Assembly: GCF_007904085.1 (NCBI RefSeq)
Contig: NZ_CP042326.1
Coordinates: 992,001 to 1,056,000, forward strand
Source: Euhalothece natronophila Z-M001
GTDB lineage: Bacteria; Cyanobacteriota; Cyanobacteriia; Cyanobacteriales; Rubidibacteraceae
DNA length: 64,000 nt
Reading direction: 5' to 3'
The position numbers and the translations under genes were made by a program. Numbering within the stretch: position 1 is the first letter of the stretch; the number at the start of each line of letters is the position of its first letter. This document shows positions 8,111 through 33,584 of this stretch, piece after piece. The notes below the pieces were generated by a model, which had not been told where the DNA came from, searched no databases, and saw only the letters and a list, made by a program, of their open reading frames with translations.

Positions 8111-8190
8111 GAGGAATGTATTTTTCTTAAACACCTTTGCTAGGATAACACATTTTTTCCATTTTGAAACAATTAATCAGTAAATTTTCT

Positions 8191-8382
8191 TTATCGTAAA
8201 ATCACGGGTTTAAAACCCCGCCATTTATGGCGTTCTGTGTTAAGATGTAAGGGTCTGCGGTTGGAGCGACCGTGACCAAACAGCCCTGTAACGGCGGTCT
8301 GTCGGGGATTTAACTCTAAGAGTTAAATCTAGATAAGAGTCTACAAGGGAATCTTCTCGCCTTTAGGCAGAAGAGGCTCAAC
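8191..8382 (+). mobile_element. 192-bp non-autonomous IS200/IS605-like element, copy B
   Basis: Second copy of the element at 4267-4458: same ends (TTATCGTAAAATCACGGG; right-end hairpin then GGCTCAA), same length, a few substitutions. It lies head-to-head against the right end of a decayed tnpB element and just upstream of tRNA-Leu. There is no coding capacity. The sequence immediately after the right end differs between copies, as expected for insertion sites (or, if transcribed, guide segments). Confidence 0.65.
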
Positions 8383-8411
8383 TCATTGTGTTGTCGTCTT
8401 CAGATATCCTA

Positions 8412-8450
8412 TTGAACTCTCCACGTGATAAATCGACGTGGATTCCAAAC
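8412..8450 (-). repeat. Right-end hairpin of the decayed IS200/IS605 element
   Basis: On the minus strand GGAAT-CCACGT-cgatttatc-ACGTGG-AGAGTTCAA forms the typical subterminal right-end hairpin downstream of tnpB. It places the end of the element near 8412. Confidence 0.55.
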
Positions 8451-8546
8451 GTTGCTTCGCATTAGTACGGGGCTTTCCTTCGGTTCGGGCTTCTTACGTT
8501 TTGAGGAAACCTCCAAACTAAGCCCTCACAGGGTGCTGAAATGAAT

Positions 8547-27348: not shown

Positions 27349-28398
27349 ATGCCAAAAACATCAGTTACTCAAAAAGCAATTATCTGTGGCTATTACGGAC
27401 AAAATAATGTTGGTGATGACGCACTGTTAATGAGTTTACTTGCCATGCTTCCCTCTCACATTAAACCATTAGTCTTATCAGGTAATCCCCAACAAACTCG
27501 GGAACAGTTACAAGTCGAGGCACTTCCCAATCGTTCCGCTTTTTCCATTTTAGACGCGCTAAAGCAGGGAGATCTCTTTATTTGGGGAGGGGGAAGTTTA
27601 ATGCAAGATGCTACCAGTTTCCGTAACCCGATTTATTATGGGGGATTAATGGCGCTAGCGCAACAACGAGGCTTAAAAAGTATCGCATGGGCGCAAGGGG
27701 TGGGCCCACTACGGTTTCCCTTGTCTCGCTGGATTACTCGCAAAGCCTTAATGGGATGTGATAGCATTAGTGTGCGCGATCGCGCTTCAGCAGAGTTATT
27801 AAGTAATTGGGGATTATCGCCTCTCATTGCCCCTGATCCCGTTTGGGCGTTAGATCGAGAACCTTTCCCCGAATTATGGAAATTACCAGCTCCCCGTATT
27901 GCCGTTACTTTACGAGAACACCCTCAACTCACCACAGGAAAAATTAGAGACTTAACCACTGCCCTAATTTCCTTACAAAAAGCCACCGATACTTGCATTT
28001 TACTGGTTCCCTTTCAACCGAAAGATCACCCGATAGCAGAAGCGATAGCAGATCAAATTCCGCAACCGAAAGCCGTGATTAAAAATGAATCTCCCACTCG
28101 CTTAAAAACGCTATTTCGTGGCGTAGAAATGGCAATTGGAATGCGCTATCACAGTTTAATTCTTGCAGCTTCGGAAGAGTGTCGCTGTTTTGCCCTGAGT
28201 TATGATCCCAAAATTAAGGAACTCATGAGTGAGTGGGAAATGCCAGGATGGGAGATGGGAGAGATTCCTGATGATCCCAAAGTCATTACTAAGGCTTGGA
28301 TCGAACATTATGCCAATGGAGAGGCTTTAACCCCTGATCAAATTCAATCGCAGCGCGATCGCGCTTTTATGCACCAAGAGTTATTAACCCATTGCTAA
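27349..28398 (+). CDS. csaB: Polysaccharide pyruvyl transferase CsaB
   Basis: 349 residues, usual length for CsaB. Recognisable parts: 'CGYYGQNNVGDDALLMSLLA' (N-terminal loop), 'FIWGGGSLMQDATSFRNPIY', 'AQGVGPLRFPLSRWITRKAL', 'GCDSISVRDRASAELLSNWG' and 'IGMRYHSLILAASEECRCFA'. It adds ketal-linked pyruvate to a cell-wall polysaccharide, which in many bacteria is the anchor for SLH-domain S-layer or outer-membrane proteins. SLH-domain porins are a cyanobacterial feature, so this fits. It ends 4 bases inside the convergent CyRepA1 gene. Confidence 0.9.
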   Translation: MPKTSVTQKAIICGYYGQNNVGDDALLMSLLAMLPSHIKPLVLSGNPQQTREQLQVEALPNRSAFSILDALKQGDLFIWGGGSLMQDATSFRNPIYYGGLMALAQQRGLKSIAWAQGVGPLRFPLSRWITRKALMGCDSISVRDRASAELLSNWGLSPLIAPDPVWALDREPFPELWKLPAPRIAVTLREHPQLTTGKIRDLTTALISLQKATDTCILLVPFQPKDHPIAEAIADQIPQPKAVIKNESPTRLKTLFRGVEMAIGMRYHSLILAASEECRCFALSYDPKIKELMSEWEMPGWEMGEIPDDPKVITKAWIEHYANGEALTPDQIQSQRDRAFMHQELLTHC

Positions 28399-31361
28399 CG
28401 CCATTTTGTGGAAACAGCAGGGTAGTCCTTTTTAAAGAGGGAGAAACGTCGATCTAAACAAGCTAAAACCGCCAAGCGTTCAGGTTCTTGCCATTGTTTT
28501 CCCAGAATATAATACCCCCCGTTTTGACGAGTTAATTTAACACCAACTAACCGTAAAACGTGACGAAATACCTGAATCGGTGTTGCTTGTTTAGCTGTTA
28601 CTTTTACTGTCGAAGCTAAAGTAGTTTCTTGAATTTTATGTTGCAACTGTTGTAATTCTGGAGAGTGATTTGTCCAACATTTTTCAGACGCTAATAAAGG
28701 AGGTAAATTGAGGCTAATTAATCCTTGAATCAGAGATAACTGTTGATACACCTTTGAACTTAAATTAGGTTCAATTCCTGAATACCAAAAAGACTGCATC
28801 ATCTCCTGAGCAATTTCGGGATGATAAATCAACCACAATCGTTCTTGTTTTGTAATAAAATCGCGATCATCATAAAAAACTTTTTTAATAAAATGGGGTG
28901 TCCAAATAGAACTTTTTTCGATATTAGGAAGTTGTTTTTTTAGTAATTCTTGTTCAAGTTTACCCTGTTGTGTTTTTCCTTGATAAATTGTCTCTGCATT
29001 TTTTAATTTAATCGCCTCTTTTGCTTCTTTTTCCTGTTGTTTCGCATCGGAAGATCTATCTAAGGTAACTAATTCCACTTCATGACCTTCCTGAAGCAAA
29101 ATTTGATACAAAGATTCCCAAAGATAAGACTGTTGATGATTATGAATCGCTCTTAAAATACAAAATGTTTGATGATGATTATCTTGCGTTGCATCTGTCA
29201 CCTCTTTAATAAATTCTTCTACCACTGCTGTAGTATCGTCACCTGCTAAAAGCGTATTTCCTGTTTTTAAGATTAACGATTGAATTGCTTCCAATAATGG
29301 TTCTGGAAATTGAAACTGAACTGTTTGCTTATTGAGTTGCCCATAATGAGAACACCAAAGCCAGCGAGTAACATCCACATCTCGTAACCGACTCATCATT
29401 TGTAATTGAGCATTGGTTTGGAGAACGCCAAAAAAGAGACAAAATTGATCACTAAAATAGTTCTTGAGACTAATATCAATTCCCGCCTCCGCAGCCGGGG
29501 TATAAATTAAATAATCAGGGCAGTGAGTGGTAATATACTGATTAGGAGATTTGAGAAAGGTTTGAATTTCAGGCTCGGAAATGGTTTTAGAATCAATCCG
29601 TATTCCCTGCTTTCCAGTGTCGGCTAAAAGTTGATCTAAGGCTTCTGCTTCCAGTTGACTATCAGTACAGATAACTGGCTTTGATGATAGCCACAATTGT
29701 TGTAATAAGGCAGAGCGATCGCTGCGTTTTTTGTTTCCTTTTTCATCATACGTATCTTGGAGAAACTTCACTTGTAAGGGTGTCCCTTGATAACAATTTT
29801 CCACTTTAATCAAAGGGCGATCGCGTCCGGCTAACTGATAAAGATAGTCCACACACCAATCTGTTAACATCCCATCTAAACAAAAAATCCGTTTTGCTTG
29901 TTGAAGGGCTTCCCCAAAGCGTTGGAGAATTTTGTCTCGCTTCTGTTTTAGCGTGTCGCCCGTTAAAAGATGAGTCACCACAGCTATAGCTTCATCAAGA
30001 ATGATATTTTTACCGGCAAAGGCTTCAGGAGAAAAATGGTGTAAACTATCCACACATAGGGCAAGCTGGGAATTGGGAACGTTAATGAGATCAAAGGCTT
30101 GTTCGGTTTGGAGATGAACAAAGCCCCAACGCTGAGAAGACTGGAGTAAGAGGGAATTGCGATGTCCGAGGGCTAACCAGCCTTCGTCTCTGAGTTCCGC
30201 CACAACTTGCGCTAACCAAGTGGTTTTCCCACTGCCTAACCTTGATTTAACGGCCATGAGAGTGCCTTCGGAGGGAGTTTCCCAATTAAAATAAGGTTGA
30301 TTAATGATCTCGGTTGCTTCATAGGTTTGATGAGGTGTAGCGAGATGGGGATCTAACCCTGCTTCCGTGGCTAATTCGGTGGCTAACGTCTGCACGGTTT
30401 TCCCTCTAGGGAGTCCATTTCCCCCCTGTAAAAAGTGGCGATATTGTAACGCCCCGCCCCCCACTTCACAGCCAAAGCAATACCATTCTCCTGTGTGACG
30501 ATTTACGGTAAACGCCGTTCCACTTTGCGATTGATGTCTTGGGCAATAACCGCGCCATGTTTCCCCGATTTCCTGAAATTGATGTCCTGACCAGTGATAA
30601 ATTTCTTCTAGGCTAAGGCGACTGGTTGCTTTATCAATAATTTGGCTTAATTGACTATTCCCCGTAACTCCAGTGTAGATTGAGCGTATCCCGCTTCCAG
30701 AAGCAGGAGATTTGGTTTTGCCTTGTGGAGAATAGGTTGGGTCTAGAAATTCACACAGCCAAGTGGGCGCGATCGCGATTTCTTGGTCTTCAGGCGACAG
30801 CAACCACCGATACTCCCCAGTTTGCCGATGAAAGGACGGCGGTAACACTGATTGATGCTGATTATAACGAAATTCCAGTAATTCCCCTGCACAGGTTGTC
30901 ACCGTCTCCCATTCCGTCAAGGTTTTCCGTCGAAAGGACTGTAACCTCTCTCGATAGGCTTGAGGAATTTGATAAAGCAGTTGGCGGCGACCGGGTTTTC
31001 CCGATGTCCAAGTTACCGTTTCTGGCAGTGACTCTTGGGCTAAAGCCTTTAATAATCGGTCAGCGCTGCTGCCATCAATATCAACAGCGAGCAGCCCCTC
31101 AGAGGGATCTCCTAATCTTAACCCATAGCCCGAACAAAAAGCATGATAGGGTTGACCAGTGCGCTTACTAACCCGTTGTTCTCCCTCCTGTAATAGCCTC
31201 GCAATCTCTTGGTGGGGGATAAAGGGTTCTTGTTGCCATCCTTCGCGATAAGGACGTTTTTCCCAGAGAGGGGTTAAACTCCAATGGGAGGGGATTTGTT
31301 TCAAACAAGCCGCGATCGCGCTCGCATGGGGAACAGGCTGAAAAGGAGTCCAATCAGTCAT
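28395..31361 (-). CDS. CyRepA1-type plasmid replication protein
   Basis: 988 residues, close to the usual CyRepA1 length. The N-terminal part resembles a primase-polymerase ('YGLRLGDPSEGLLAVDIDGS', residues about 78-97). A zinc motif follows near 270-300 ('YCPRH..YCFGCEVGGGALQY'). A helicase-like ATPase follows: Walker A 'AVKSRLGSGKTTWLAQVV' near 370, Walker B 'IILDEAIAVVTHLL' near 450, and 'MMSRLRDVDVTRWLW' as a late motif. In Synechocystis this family replicates plasmids such as pSYSA. Here it lies among ordinary chromosomal genes, so it may mark an integrated plasmid or mobile unit. No partition gene is nearby. Confidence 0.8.
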   Translation of the reverse strand: MTDWTPFQPVPHASAIAACLKQIPSHWSLTPLWEKRPYREGWQQEPFIPHQEIARLLQEGEQRVSKRTGQPYHAFCSGYGLRLGDPSEGLLAVDIDGSSADRLLKALAQESLPETVTWTSGKPGRRQLLYQIPQAYRERLQSFRRKTLTEWETVTTCAGELLEFRYNQHQSVLPPSFHRQTGEYRWLLSPEDQEIAIAPTWLCEFLDPTYSPQGKTKSPASGSGIRSIYTGVTGNSQLSQIIDKATSRLSLEEIYHWSGHQFQEIGETWRGYCPRHQSQSGTAFTVNRHTGEWYCFGCEVGGGALQYRHFLQGGNGLPRGKTVQTLATELATEAGLDPHLATPHQTYEATEIINQPYFNWETPSEGTLMAVKSRLGSGKTTWLAQVVAELRDEGWLALGHRNSLLLQSSQRWGFVHLQTEQAFDLINVPNSQLALCVDSLHHFSPEAFAGKNIILDEAIAVVTHLLTGDTLKQKRDKILQRFGEALQQAKRIFCLDGMLTDWCVDYLYQLAGRDRPLIKVENCYQGTPLQVKFLQDTYDEKGNKKRSDRSALLQQLWLSSKPVICTDSQLEAEALDQLLADTGKQGIRIDSKTISEPEIQTFLKSPNQYITTHCPDYLIYTPAAEAGIDISLKNYFSDQFCLFFGVLQTNAQLQMMSRLRDVDVTRWLWCSHYGQLNKQTVQFQFPEPLLEAIQSLILKTGNTLLAGDDTTAVVEEFIKEVTDATQDNHHQTFCILRAIHNHQQSYLWESLYQILLQEGHEVELVTLDRSSDAKQQEKEAKEAIKLKNAETIYQGKTQQGKLEQELLKKQLPNIEKSSIWTPHFIKKVFYDDRDFITKQERLWLIYHPEIAQEMMQSFWYSGIEPNLSSKVYQQLSLIQGLISLNLPPLLASEKCWTNHSPELQQLQHKIQETTLASTVKVTAKQATPIQVFRHVLRLVGVKLTRQNGGYYILGKQWQEPERLAVLACLDRRFSLFKKDYPAVSTKWR

Positions 31362-31517: not shown

Positions 31518-33584
31518 ATGACTCAATTGGATCAGGAAACCTGGCTAAATGAACTTATCAGATTATCTCGGGAAACTTCAGTGGGAAAACAGCTTCCTAA
31601 TGCCTTTTATGTCCATGTCAGTGCCTTACCTGCCCTTTGCGAAACGTTACAAGCCTATGAACAGAAGGCGCGCTCAGTGGTGGAAAAAGACATTGCAGAG
31701 GCAACCCTAATTAAGTACAGCTTTAGTGAGCCGAAGATTTCTTACCTATTTTATCCCGACTTTGATCGCGTTGCCCATCCTCCCCTAAAAGCTAGCTTAC
31801 AGGTAAACTTAGTGACCCTTGAGGTGAGTTATCGTAGCTATCACGATACAGTAAACCCTCCCATTCTCCATCGCAAAGAAACCTTTGTCACGCCAGAGTA
31901 TCCCTATTATCAAACATTTGTCCAACTGACTCAACAAGAAAAAGCCCTCGGATTATTAACTCAATCTCGCTACATTGGAACTCAACGGGAATGGGAACAA
32001 AAATTGCGCGATCGCGCTGTAGAAATCCAAGGTCATCAAGTGATTTCTCATCAAGCCACCCACCAGAAAAAGCCCAAAATTGAACGCCACAAAGCAGCCA
32101 TTGTTCGTCATCAAATCTCTCGTCCGGTTCGAGTTGCTTTAGAAGCAGAATTATTTACAGAAGGAACCACTTTCTTTGACTACGGTTGTGGATATGGGGG
32201 AGATATTGAACGCATTGCAGAAAAAGGATATGACAGTCGTGGCTGGGATCCCTATTACTCTCCTGACACCCCCTTAGTTGAAGCTGATATTGTCAATTTG
32301 GGTTATGTCATTAACGTTATTGAAGACACTCAAGAAAGACGAGAAGCCCTAATTAATGCTTGGAAACTCACGCGTCGGGTTTTAATTGTTTCGGCGCAAG
32401 TCCTAATTAACGATTCTAGCAACAGACAAGTAGCCTATGGGGATGGGGTAATTACGCGGCGTAATACCTTTCAAAAATACTACGAACAAGAAGAACTCAA
32501 AGCCTATATTGATCAAGTTTTAGGGGTTGATGCATTACCCATTGGCTTAGGGGTTTATTTAGTCTTTCGAGATTCCAGACAAGCGGAAACATTTCGCGCC
32601 AGTCGATTTCGTTCTCACGCCAAAACTCCCCGTTTACAAAAACGAGTCCGTCGCTTTGAAGACTATCAGACTTTATTAACTCCCCTTATGGATTTTATGA
32701 CGGAACGGGGACGTTTACCCGCCAAAGGAGAACTCCCTGAAGAATCCCAAATTAAAGCTGAATTAGGGGGATTACGGAGGGCTTTTAAGGTGATTTTACA
32801 AGCGACAAACCAAGAAGACTGGAACGCGATCACACAACAGCGTAGCGAAGAACTAAAACTCTATTTAGCCACTGCTTTACTTACGCATCGTCCTAAATTT
32901 AAAGACTTTTCGGCTACTGTACGCCAAGATATCAAAGGGCTTTTTGGTTCCTTTAAGCAAGCCTGCGCTGAAGCTGAAGCCATGCTTTTTAGTTTAAGTG
33001 ATCAAGAAGTCATTGAACAGTTATGTCGAGAAAGCAAAATTGGCTTAAAACTGAGTAAAAGTCTCCTTGTTCATATTAGCAGTCTAGAAGAATTAGATCC
33101 TTTATTAAGGCTTTATGAGGCTTGTGCCAGTCGTACTGTTGGACGCTTAGAAAATGTTACGGTGATTCAGTTTTATCTCGCAAAACCGAAAATTGCTTAT
33201 TTATCTTATCCCGAATTTGATAGAGATCCTCATCCGCCGTTAAAAGCAAAAATGGAGATTAATTTAGGAGATTTAAATGTTTATTACACTGAATATAATC
33301 AAAATAATCCACCGCTTTTACACGAAAAGGATAAATTAGTTAGTTCTGATTATCCCCTTTATGAGAAATTTGCCCGCTTAACTCAACAAGAACGAGATTG
33401 GGGATTATTAGATGATTTTAAAGCGATTCGCGATCGCAGGGGTTGGTTAAAATGTCTAGAGGAGCATGGAGCAGAACTAAAAAATCATCATCTCCGTTGG
33501 CGAAAAGATCTTGACCTCTATCGTCTTAAAATTCTGAAAAGCCAAGTACAACAACGACGAAGACAGCAGAAAAAATCTCAATGA
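31518..33584 (+). CDS. DNA phosphorothioation-associated putative methyltransferase with a duplicated flanking domain
   Basis: 688 residues. The centre (about 200-360) is a SAM-dependent methyltransferase: 'TFFDYGCGYGGDIERIAEKG' as SAM loop, then 'RRVLIVSAQVLIN'. It matches the family named after its frequent place beside dnd (DNA phosphorothioation) genes; none are here. Residues about 1-175 and 500-665 are homologous to each other: both contain a 'YPxFDR..HPPLKA' block, 'NPPILH/NPPLLH', 'TPEYPYY/SSDYPLY' and 'LTQQE..GLL'. The same domain therefore sits on each side of the methyltransferase. The true substrate is unknown. Divergent from CyRepA1 across 156 bases. Confidence 0.8.
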   Translation: MTQLDQETWLNELIRLSRETSVGKQLPNAFYVHVSALPALCETLQAYEQKARSVVEKDIAEATLIKYSFSEPKISYLFYPDFDRVAHPPLKASLQVNLVTLEVSYRSYHDTVNPPILHRKETFVTPEYPYYQTFVQLTQQEKALGLLTQSRYIGTQREWEQKLRDRAVEIQGHQVISHQATHQKKPKIERHKAAIVRHQISRPVRVALEAELFTEGTTFFDYGCGYGGDIERIAEKGYDSRGWDPYYSPDTPLVEADIVNLGYVINVIEDTQERREALINAWKLTRRVLIVSAQVLINDSSNRQVAYGDGVITRRNTFQKYYEQEELKAYIDQVLGVDALPIGLGVYLVFRDSRQAETFRASRFRSHAKTPRLQKRVRRFEDYQTLLTPLMDFMTERGRLPAKGELPEESQIKAELGGLRRAFKVILQATNQEDWNAITQQRSEELKLYLATALLTHRPKFKDFSATVRQDIKGLFGSFKQACAEAEAMLFSLSDQEVIEQLCRESKIGLKLSKSLLVHISSLEELDPLLRLYEACASRTVGRLENVTVIQFYLAKPKIAYLSYPEFDRDPHPPLKAKMEINLGDLNVYYTEYNQNNPPLLHEKDKLVSSDYPLYEKFARLTQQERDWGLLDDFKAIRDRRGWLKCLEEHGAELKNHHLRWRKDLDLYRLKILKSQVQQRRRQQKKSQ

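Follow-up and report, generated by a model that had tools for sequence, protein, structure and literature searches.

The 64,000-nucleotide stretch of Euhalothece natronophila Z-M001 analysed here (the window, positions 992001-1056000 of contig 1 in a 3.52 Mb genome) encodes a protein of family TIGR04096, in which a methyltransferase (MTase) core and a linker are flanked on both sides by copies of one domain, here called A. In the sampled genomes this MTase co-occurs almost perfectly with the writers of DNA phosphorothioation (PT), Dnd as well as Ssp, and tends to vanish or break together with them. The reading preferred here, at a probability of about one half, is that of an accessory PT enzyme, a pseudo-dimer whose A arms would act on PT-DNA or on the sulfur relay, while its MTase would methylate DNA at or near the PT site.

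Co-occurrence with the Dnd and Ssp writers

PT is common in cyanobacteria, as an even draw of 117 cyanobacterial genomes contains dndC in 33. The MTase is over the profile cut-off in 40 genomes of this draw. It is present in all 33 dndC-positive genomes (the dndC of genome G036 being truncated) versus 7 of the 84 dndC-negative ones. SspB occurs in four of these seven (G042, G047, G104 and G121), dndD is cut by a contig end in G026, and G051 and G090 contain neither dndC nor DUF4007, the SspB family, in the profile searches. When genomes with dndC or DUF4007 are taken as PT-positive, the MTase is found in 37 of 40 versus 3 of the 77 others (Fisher p = 2e-23, uncorrected for kinship). For DUF4007 to count as SspB, a score of at least 150 bits was required, a threshold chosen after the match list had been viewed; the PT-positive count is unaffected by it, because the weaker matches (G059, G100, G102 and G137) all come from dndC-positive genomes. 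The PT-positive genomes without the MTase are G046, with a 7.8 kb contig bearing sspB and sspC, G110 and G124.

In a separate set of 40 genomes, comprising the Euhalothece genome and its relatives, TIGR04096 is over the cut-off in 33 and dndD in 31, with both in 30 and neither in 6. The MTase stands without dndD in G006, G029 and G036, and dndD without the MTase in G023. G029 has SspB, G036 has the truncated dndC and a 63-position dndD fragment, and G006, with no dndD over the cut-off, carries a fragmented MTase, with a stop in two of the fragments. MTase and dnd are jointly missing from G007 and G008 (family f1), G015 (f8) and G085 (f33), while other members of these families have both. As a near-constant companion of two mostly unrelated PT writers, the MTase would be a component so far missing from the picture of PT.

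Domain layout and duplication of the A domain

The gene and its parts are as follows (window coordinates):

31518..33584, plus strand: TIGR04096 'DNA phosphorothioation-associated putative methyltransferase', A-MTase-linker-A, 688 aa, ATG to TGA (profile match)
31530..32042, plus strand: N-terminal A domain, residues 5-175 (self-alignment; aligns with the C-terminal part of TIGR04096)
31854..31871, plus strand: NPPxLH block of the N copy, NPPILH, residues 113-118 (sequence)
32079..32633, plus strand: class I S-adenosylmethionine (SAM) methyltransferase core, residues 188-372 (AlphaFold2 model; VIA-align to SAM methyltransferases)
32178..32192, plus strand: SAM motif I, DYGCG, residues 221-225 (D221-C224 invariant and G225 nearly so in alignment A2)
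32466..32477, plus strand: family signature TFQK, residues 317-320 (invariant in alignment A2)
32634..32990, plus strand: helical linker 'K', residues 373-491 (AlphaFold2 model, domain mapping)
32991..33503, plus strand: C-terminal A domain, residues 492-662 (self-alignment, A-domain fold prediction)
33306..33323, plus strand: NPPxLH block of the C copy, NPPLLH, residues 597-602 (sequence)

The protein matches the TIGR04096 profile at 848.6 bits (NCBI curated cut-off 150) over model positions 1-477 of 478, the main match spanning residues 187-661, that is the MTase, linker and C-terminal A. The model thus shares these three parts with the window protein, starting at the MTase and omitting the N-terminal A, though most examined members have one; in the whole-genome search the N-terminal A appears as a second match that covers the model's C-terminal part. 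Pfam, PHROGs and PADLOC searches of the window protein gave nothing significant, and none of the Dnd or Ssp protein profiles matched it.

Local alignment of residues 5-175 with 495-659 gives 67 identities in 171 columns and a score of 323, against a mean of 31.8 (standard deviation 5.3) and a maximum of 66 in 2000 shuffles, while either flank scores at the shuffle level against the MTase core (28 and 32). BLASTP of the two A domains gives 40% identity over 160 residues (E 4.3e-43). An earlier note on this DNA had described a PT-associated MTase bracketed by homologous flanks with shared YPxFDR-HPPLKA, NPPxLH and LTQQE blocks, a view to be dropped if the flanks aligned only by chance or if homologs without the duplication were the rule in the same system. 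Every named block is present (YPDFDRVAHPPLKA at 79 and YPEFDRDPHPPLKA at 564; LTQQE at 137 and 621), the likeness is far above chance, and 29 of the 40 MTase carriers in the even draw have the N-terminal A, so that the description holds on each count. A stop lies inside a match in three of these 29 long forms (G020, G104 and G137).

The A-MTase-A duplication is the rule among the homologs. The N-terminal A is found in 73 of 80 named loci (L numbers) and in none of the other 7, one of which is cut by a contig end; these loci, 78 titled as cyanobacteria and two metagenome-assembled genomes (MAGs) titled otherwise, were ranked by likeness to the window protein, which biases the 73:7 ratio, and at least 459 further relatives lie beyond the set. 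Three contigs, judged by length and content, stand under two labels each (L028/L077, L040/L045 and L053/L157). All 11 proteobacterial homologs examined have the N-terminal A and 9 have both copies; L146, from Microvirga, shows no detectable C-terminal A, and L148, from Rhizobium, terminates ahead of it. The two actinobacterial homologs comprise a Nonomuraea protein without the N copy and an Arthrobacter frame that is broken. In Sphingomonas (L147, 7995-9895) the N-terminal A is a separate open reading frame overlapping the start of the MTase frame, which may be a natural split or a frameshift.

The A domain and its conserved site

The fold of the isolated A domain is predicted confidently (predicted local distance difference test, pLDDT, 93.8; predicted TM-score, pTM, 0.88), and no confident match was found among PDB folds (E no better than 0.34 with Foldseek; Z of at most 4.1, over 73 residues, with VIA), which is no proof of a new fold. 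Sequence searches with the domain found no PDB or PHROG match, and Pfam over 68 members gave nothing worthwhile (best E 0.009, in 2 members). Fourteen positions are near-invariant in 84 A domains (in C-copy numbering G509, H519, Y564, F567, D568, H572, P573, N597, P598, P599, L601, H602, K604 and W643), these domains being cyanobacterial except for one row from a viral contig and two from the MAGs titled otherwise. Cyanobacterial N and C copies alike keep the site. Among 12 further N copies (11 proteobacterial and that of viral contig L123, which is counted in the cyanobacterial and the proteobacterial set alike), G509, H519, H602, K604 and W643 are kept in 12/12, and the position of H572 holds an aromatic residue in 12/12. 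Among 10 further C copies (9 proteobacterial, one from a viral contig), N597 is kept in 2/10 and W643 in 0/10. One well-kept A site appears to be required and two do not, because Proteobacteria keep the conserved site only in the N copy; judged from these residues, two equal A sites appear to be no requirement of the family.

These results bear on the idea that the A-MTase-A layout was selected as such, with two arms gripping two strands or sites so that a single active site reaches both PT strands, the DNA form of a suggestion in the earlier note that the protein may bind two equal partners or both strands of a DNA site. The site kept in both cyanobacterial copies and the recurrence of the layout in Proteobacteria speak for it. 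The C arm of Proteobacteria is degraded, however, forms with a single arm occur in Dnd operons and also with Ssp genes nearby (L109, G042), and the layout also accompanies Ssp, which modifies one strand only according to the available parts of PMC12707154 and PMC8092258; the idea is held to be improbable.

The histidine, tyrosine, proline and basic residue of the A site recall the sulfur cavity of the sulfur-binding domain (SBD) of ScoMcrA, as described in the accessible portion of PMC6224610. This likeness is a chemical one, a lead by analogy, with no common fold detected between the SBD and the A domain. A bolder proposal, and quite a long shot, is a second layer on PT-DNA, in which the A domains would be a new PT reader and the MTase would make S-methyl phosphorothioate or methylate an adjacent nucleotide. 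If this were true, cyanobacterial PT epigenetics would be a double mark, for double-strand (Dnd) and single-strand (Ssp) PT.

Gene neighbourhood in relatives

Both writers are found next to the MTase gene in relatives. SspB and SspC are encoded divergently upstream in 13 of the 80 named loci (12 long forms and 1 short form, the latter lacking the N-terminal A), and dndD/dndE lie within the examined flank in 7 (4 long, 3 short), many flanks being cut by contig ends. Several short forms directly follow dndE (L028, L029-L032, L071 and L121). The distance to dndC is at most 10 kb in 6 of 9 genomes with short forms versus 1 of 24 with long forms (p = 4.8e-4), and, when only pairs on the same contig are counted, in 6 of 7 versus 1 of 11, draft assemblies blurring the linkage; long forms are usually far from dndC. 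A simple rule of short form with Dnd and long form with Ssp was rejected, as Ssp goes with the short form in L109 and G042, and dndC with the long form in 24 genomes of the even draw.

The MTase gene directly follows the cysteine desulfurase of an ssp locus in G042 and, by annotation, a cysteine desulfurase beside sspBCD in the proteobacterial L139, while in the proteobacterial L141 it is annotated ahead of dndBCDE. A large FtsK/SpoIIIE gene and two companions precede the MTase directly in L142, L143, L144 and L147, a single small gene intervenes in L146, and FtsK-type genes lie a few genes off on the opposite strand in L131; by size and order, read without a profile search, these FtsK-containing neighbours resemble dndFGH. 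The annotation examined for L140 and L145 shows no PT gene. Profiles place SspABCD beside the MTase on viral contig L123 and SspBCD, SspA not among them, in L133. Laboratory strains also carry the gene: it lies beside sspBCD on plasmid A of Trichormus variabilis ATCC 29413, and Synechocystis PCC 6803 has it on pSYSM, where the ssp set looks incomplete within the 29 kb examined.

Trichormus plasmid A and L123 carry two extra genes, for an MzaB-like ATPase and a PbeA-like helicase, and an Ssp set with this pair recurs in L123, L133 and L160. The pair is a candidate effector for Ssp systems without sspE or sspFGH. In the available text of PMC8092258, 83.9% of sspBCD sets are without a known restriction partner, and cyanobacterial PT is usually without a known dndFGH partner as far as the portions of PMC8569181 and PMC12707154 at hand go.

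A divergent dndC-like 3'-phosphoadenosine 5'-phosphosulfate (PAPS) reductase is the upstream neighbour in L052, L053, L058, L067, L085, L107 and L110, and lies one gene further in L061; the two that were profiled (L053 and L067) have 344 and 412 aa. G090, the genome with the same contig as L053, is one in which no dndC or DUF4007 was found.

These neighbours bear on the main rival of the preferred reading, namely that the MTase modulates the activity of a protein of the PT pathway (e.g. DndC/SspD or the cysteine desulfurase) by methylating it, with the A arms docking there. The genes directly after dndE, those directly after the desulfurase in L139 and G042 and the PAPS reductase upstream in the seven loci named would all fit, as would the resemblance of the core to non-DNA methyltransferases. 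SspD and DndC, however, are only 25-28% identical over 154-163 residues, so that one docking site for both sulfurtransferases is less likely than recognition of a shared product, and this rival is considered unlikely, if the least so of the alternatives.

Methyltransferase core

The AlphaFold2 model of the whole protein, built on 49 sequences, has a mean pLDDT of 89.3 and a pTM of 0.65. Residues 187-354 have the fold of class I SAM methyltransferases, with VIA-align Z values reaching 13.8 (151 residues aligned at rmsd 2.7 and 14% identity). Foldseek and VIA-align matches of the core include METTL6, Trm9, TehB and the bacillithiol methyltransferase NmbA at 9-18% identity. The Rossmann core and SAM motif I are shared with these enzymes, whereas the TFQK signature and the A domains are the window family's own. 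TFQK is retained in stand-alone MTase relatives on viral contigs and lost in dead MTase remnants.

Viral occurrence comprises five viral contigs, four with the MTase core alone, and one phage record with a partial match. The cores of L124-L127 have TFQK and no A domains and may serve counter-defence or another use. MTase-only matches without A domains are also found on cyanobacterial plasmids (matches H26 and H29-H35).

Such cores and plasmid matches, together with the fold matches to NmbA, TehB, METTL6 and Trm9, would suit a small-molecule or thiol/RNA methyltransferase handling by-products of sulfur mobilisation (sulfide, persulfide or damaged nucleotides), in which case the link to PT would be physiological only. 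Fold matches of this kind are common for class I methyltransferases, however, and a domain of 170 residues that bears a conserved site and is kept once or twice per protein, together with plasmids bearing Ssp sets, points to a macromolecular partner, which makes this explanation rather improbable too.

Origin of the A-MTase-A layout

Two long proteins, in G013 (905 aa) and G016 (915 aa), contain a second half of an MTase before the N-terminal A (profile positions 64-181 and 65-168 of 185), in which motif I and TFQK are destroyed and which is followed by a linker remnant, the main MTase being intact. A linker remnant only is found in 7 of the 80 named loci (L075, L079, L086, L092, L102, L113 and L119). 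The relics in these 9 proteins suggest that an MTase-linker-A unit was once duplicated in tandem and that the first MTase was later lost, which would have left a single-chain pseudo-dimer.

In the A-domain tree, all 31 N copies (30 cyanobacterial and that of viral contig L123) fall on one side of one branch (support 99/96; 99% of bootstrap trees), with the C and short-form copies on the other. In the careful tree, the proteobacterial copies are separated (93/75) from a group made up of the cyanobacterial N, C and short-form copies, the exceptions being a Pseudoalteromonas N copy and the actinobacterial row, which fall within this group. A quick tree was also built after removal of 19 of the 68 rows, the longest branches among them, and there the N copies all share one side (support 67). 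Cyanobacterial short forms, which may have lost the N-terminal A or never had it, are nested by the MTase-linker tree (82) and placed beside by the whole-unit tree (60/86).

Proposed role and points against it

The MTase is proposed to be an accessory enzyme of DNA phosphorothioation and no core writer. A tandem duplication of its MTase-linker-A unit and the death of the first MTase would have produced a single polypeptide whose one active site lies between two A arms; these arms may recognise PT-DNA, which is favoured, or a member of the sulfur relay (cysteine desulfurase or PAPS-reductase-like protein), and the MTase would then methylate DNA at or near the PT site. These two ligands are proposed because Dnd and Ssp share little else: apart from the PT-DNA product and the sulfur relay their parts differ, according to the consulted part of PMC10853773. 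The iscS-sspBCD set derived from Vibrio works in E. coli with no such MTase gene in it, as reported in the same portion of PMC8092258, and this fits an accessory role.

Several results weigh against this proposal. One intact SAM-binding methyltransferase is predicted in the protein, its putative activity being read from the SAM motif, and the nearest folds of its core are small-molecule, thiol and tRNA methyltransferases. [DNS]PP[FYW] is the catalytic motif of DNA amino-methyltransferases and PCQ that of C5-cytosine methyltransferases; both are absent from the window protein, which has no Pfam DNA-methylase match. The former motif is also given in the part of PMC10853773 consulted. Two working arms seem not to be essential, as the Rhizobium protein L148 stops after the MTase and the conserved site is lost from the C-terminal A of Proteobacteria. 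The seven linker remnants are not independent, coming mostly from one filamentous cyanobacterial group (three from Okeania), and the trees, as far as their topology goes, do not decide between one duplication and two, in cyanobacteria and in Proteobacteria. Among the genomes, G023 has dndD and no MTase, and G110 and G124 have an SspA/SspC/SspB-like set together with a PAPS reductase, which the profile search marks as BrxP-like in G110, again with no MTase. Finally, cyanobacterial dnd is partly vertically inherited, as argued for Cyanobacteriales in the available sections of PMC8569181, and the Fisher p values therefore overstate the evidence.

In the literature searched, the identifiers TIGR04096 and dnd_rel_methyl are named nowhere and no function was found; TIGR04096 is not named by identifier in the accessible part of the 2024 reappraisal of PT systems (PMC10853773), and the word 'methyltransferase' does not occur in the portion of the main text of PMC8569181 at hand. 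'Phosphorothioation-associated' and 'methyltransferase' stand together in the available text of one genome paper.

PT genes of the Euhalothece genome and neighbours of the MTase gene

The Euhalothece genome encodes dndC (673.9 bits) at 552 kb and dndD (668.7 bits) at 555 kb, about 470 kb from the MTase gene at 1024 kb, and dndE (148.5 bits) at 1324 kb, about 300 kb from it; a DndB-family match of 60 bits lies on contig 5. None of the dndB, dndC, dndD and dndE matches of the genome falls within the window (these four genes, dndA excluded, being covered by the genome-wide search), and the MTase gene lies outside the dnd gene cluster. The earlier note had stated that no dnd genes are near, which agrees with this result, and had called the MTase either an orphan or a partner of dnd genes elsewhere. 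The genome search that it proposed leaves the second alternative standing: the MTase is not an orphan, because dndC, dndD and dndE are encoded in the same genome, all of them far away.

Adjoining dndC and dndD are genes for an SspC whose match is confined to positions 4-711 of 1104, for an HNH protein and for an SspA-like cysteine desulfurase without its first half, so the ssp set is incomplete. The short SspC may be a natural variant, because in Synechocystis, too, SspC is short and has a similar HNH protein for a neighbour. A DUF4007 search found none in this genome, the same search being positive in 11 of the 40 genomes, and of the two PAPS-reductase matches in the genome one is DndC and the other a frame of 293 aa, no SspD-specific search having been made.

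A second DndD-like ATPase with a CxC motif (L027, 8297-10360, minus strand; 162 bits, under the cut-off) is encoded in the Euhalothece genome among housekeeping-looking genes, and DndD-like matches below the cut-off (120-182 bits) occur in 32 of the 40 genomes. Also in the Euhalothece genome, L163 (6543-7706, minus strand, and 8142-8540, plus strand) contains a solitary dndE beside a C5-cytosine DNA methylase (PF00145, 246.7 bits), far from dndC and dndD.

In the window, both neighbours of the MTase gene are on the minus strand, a 461-aa frame downstream and a CyRepA1-type plasmid replication protein upstream. The latter (28395-31361, minus strand) adjoins the MTase gene and contains a Prim-Pol domain, and it is encoded on a 3.3 Mb contig.

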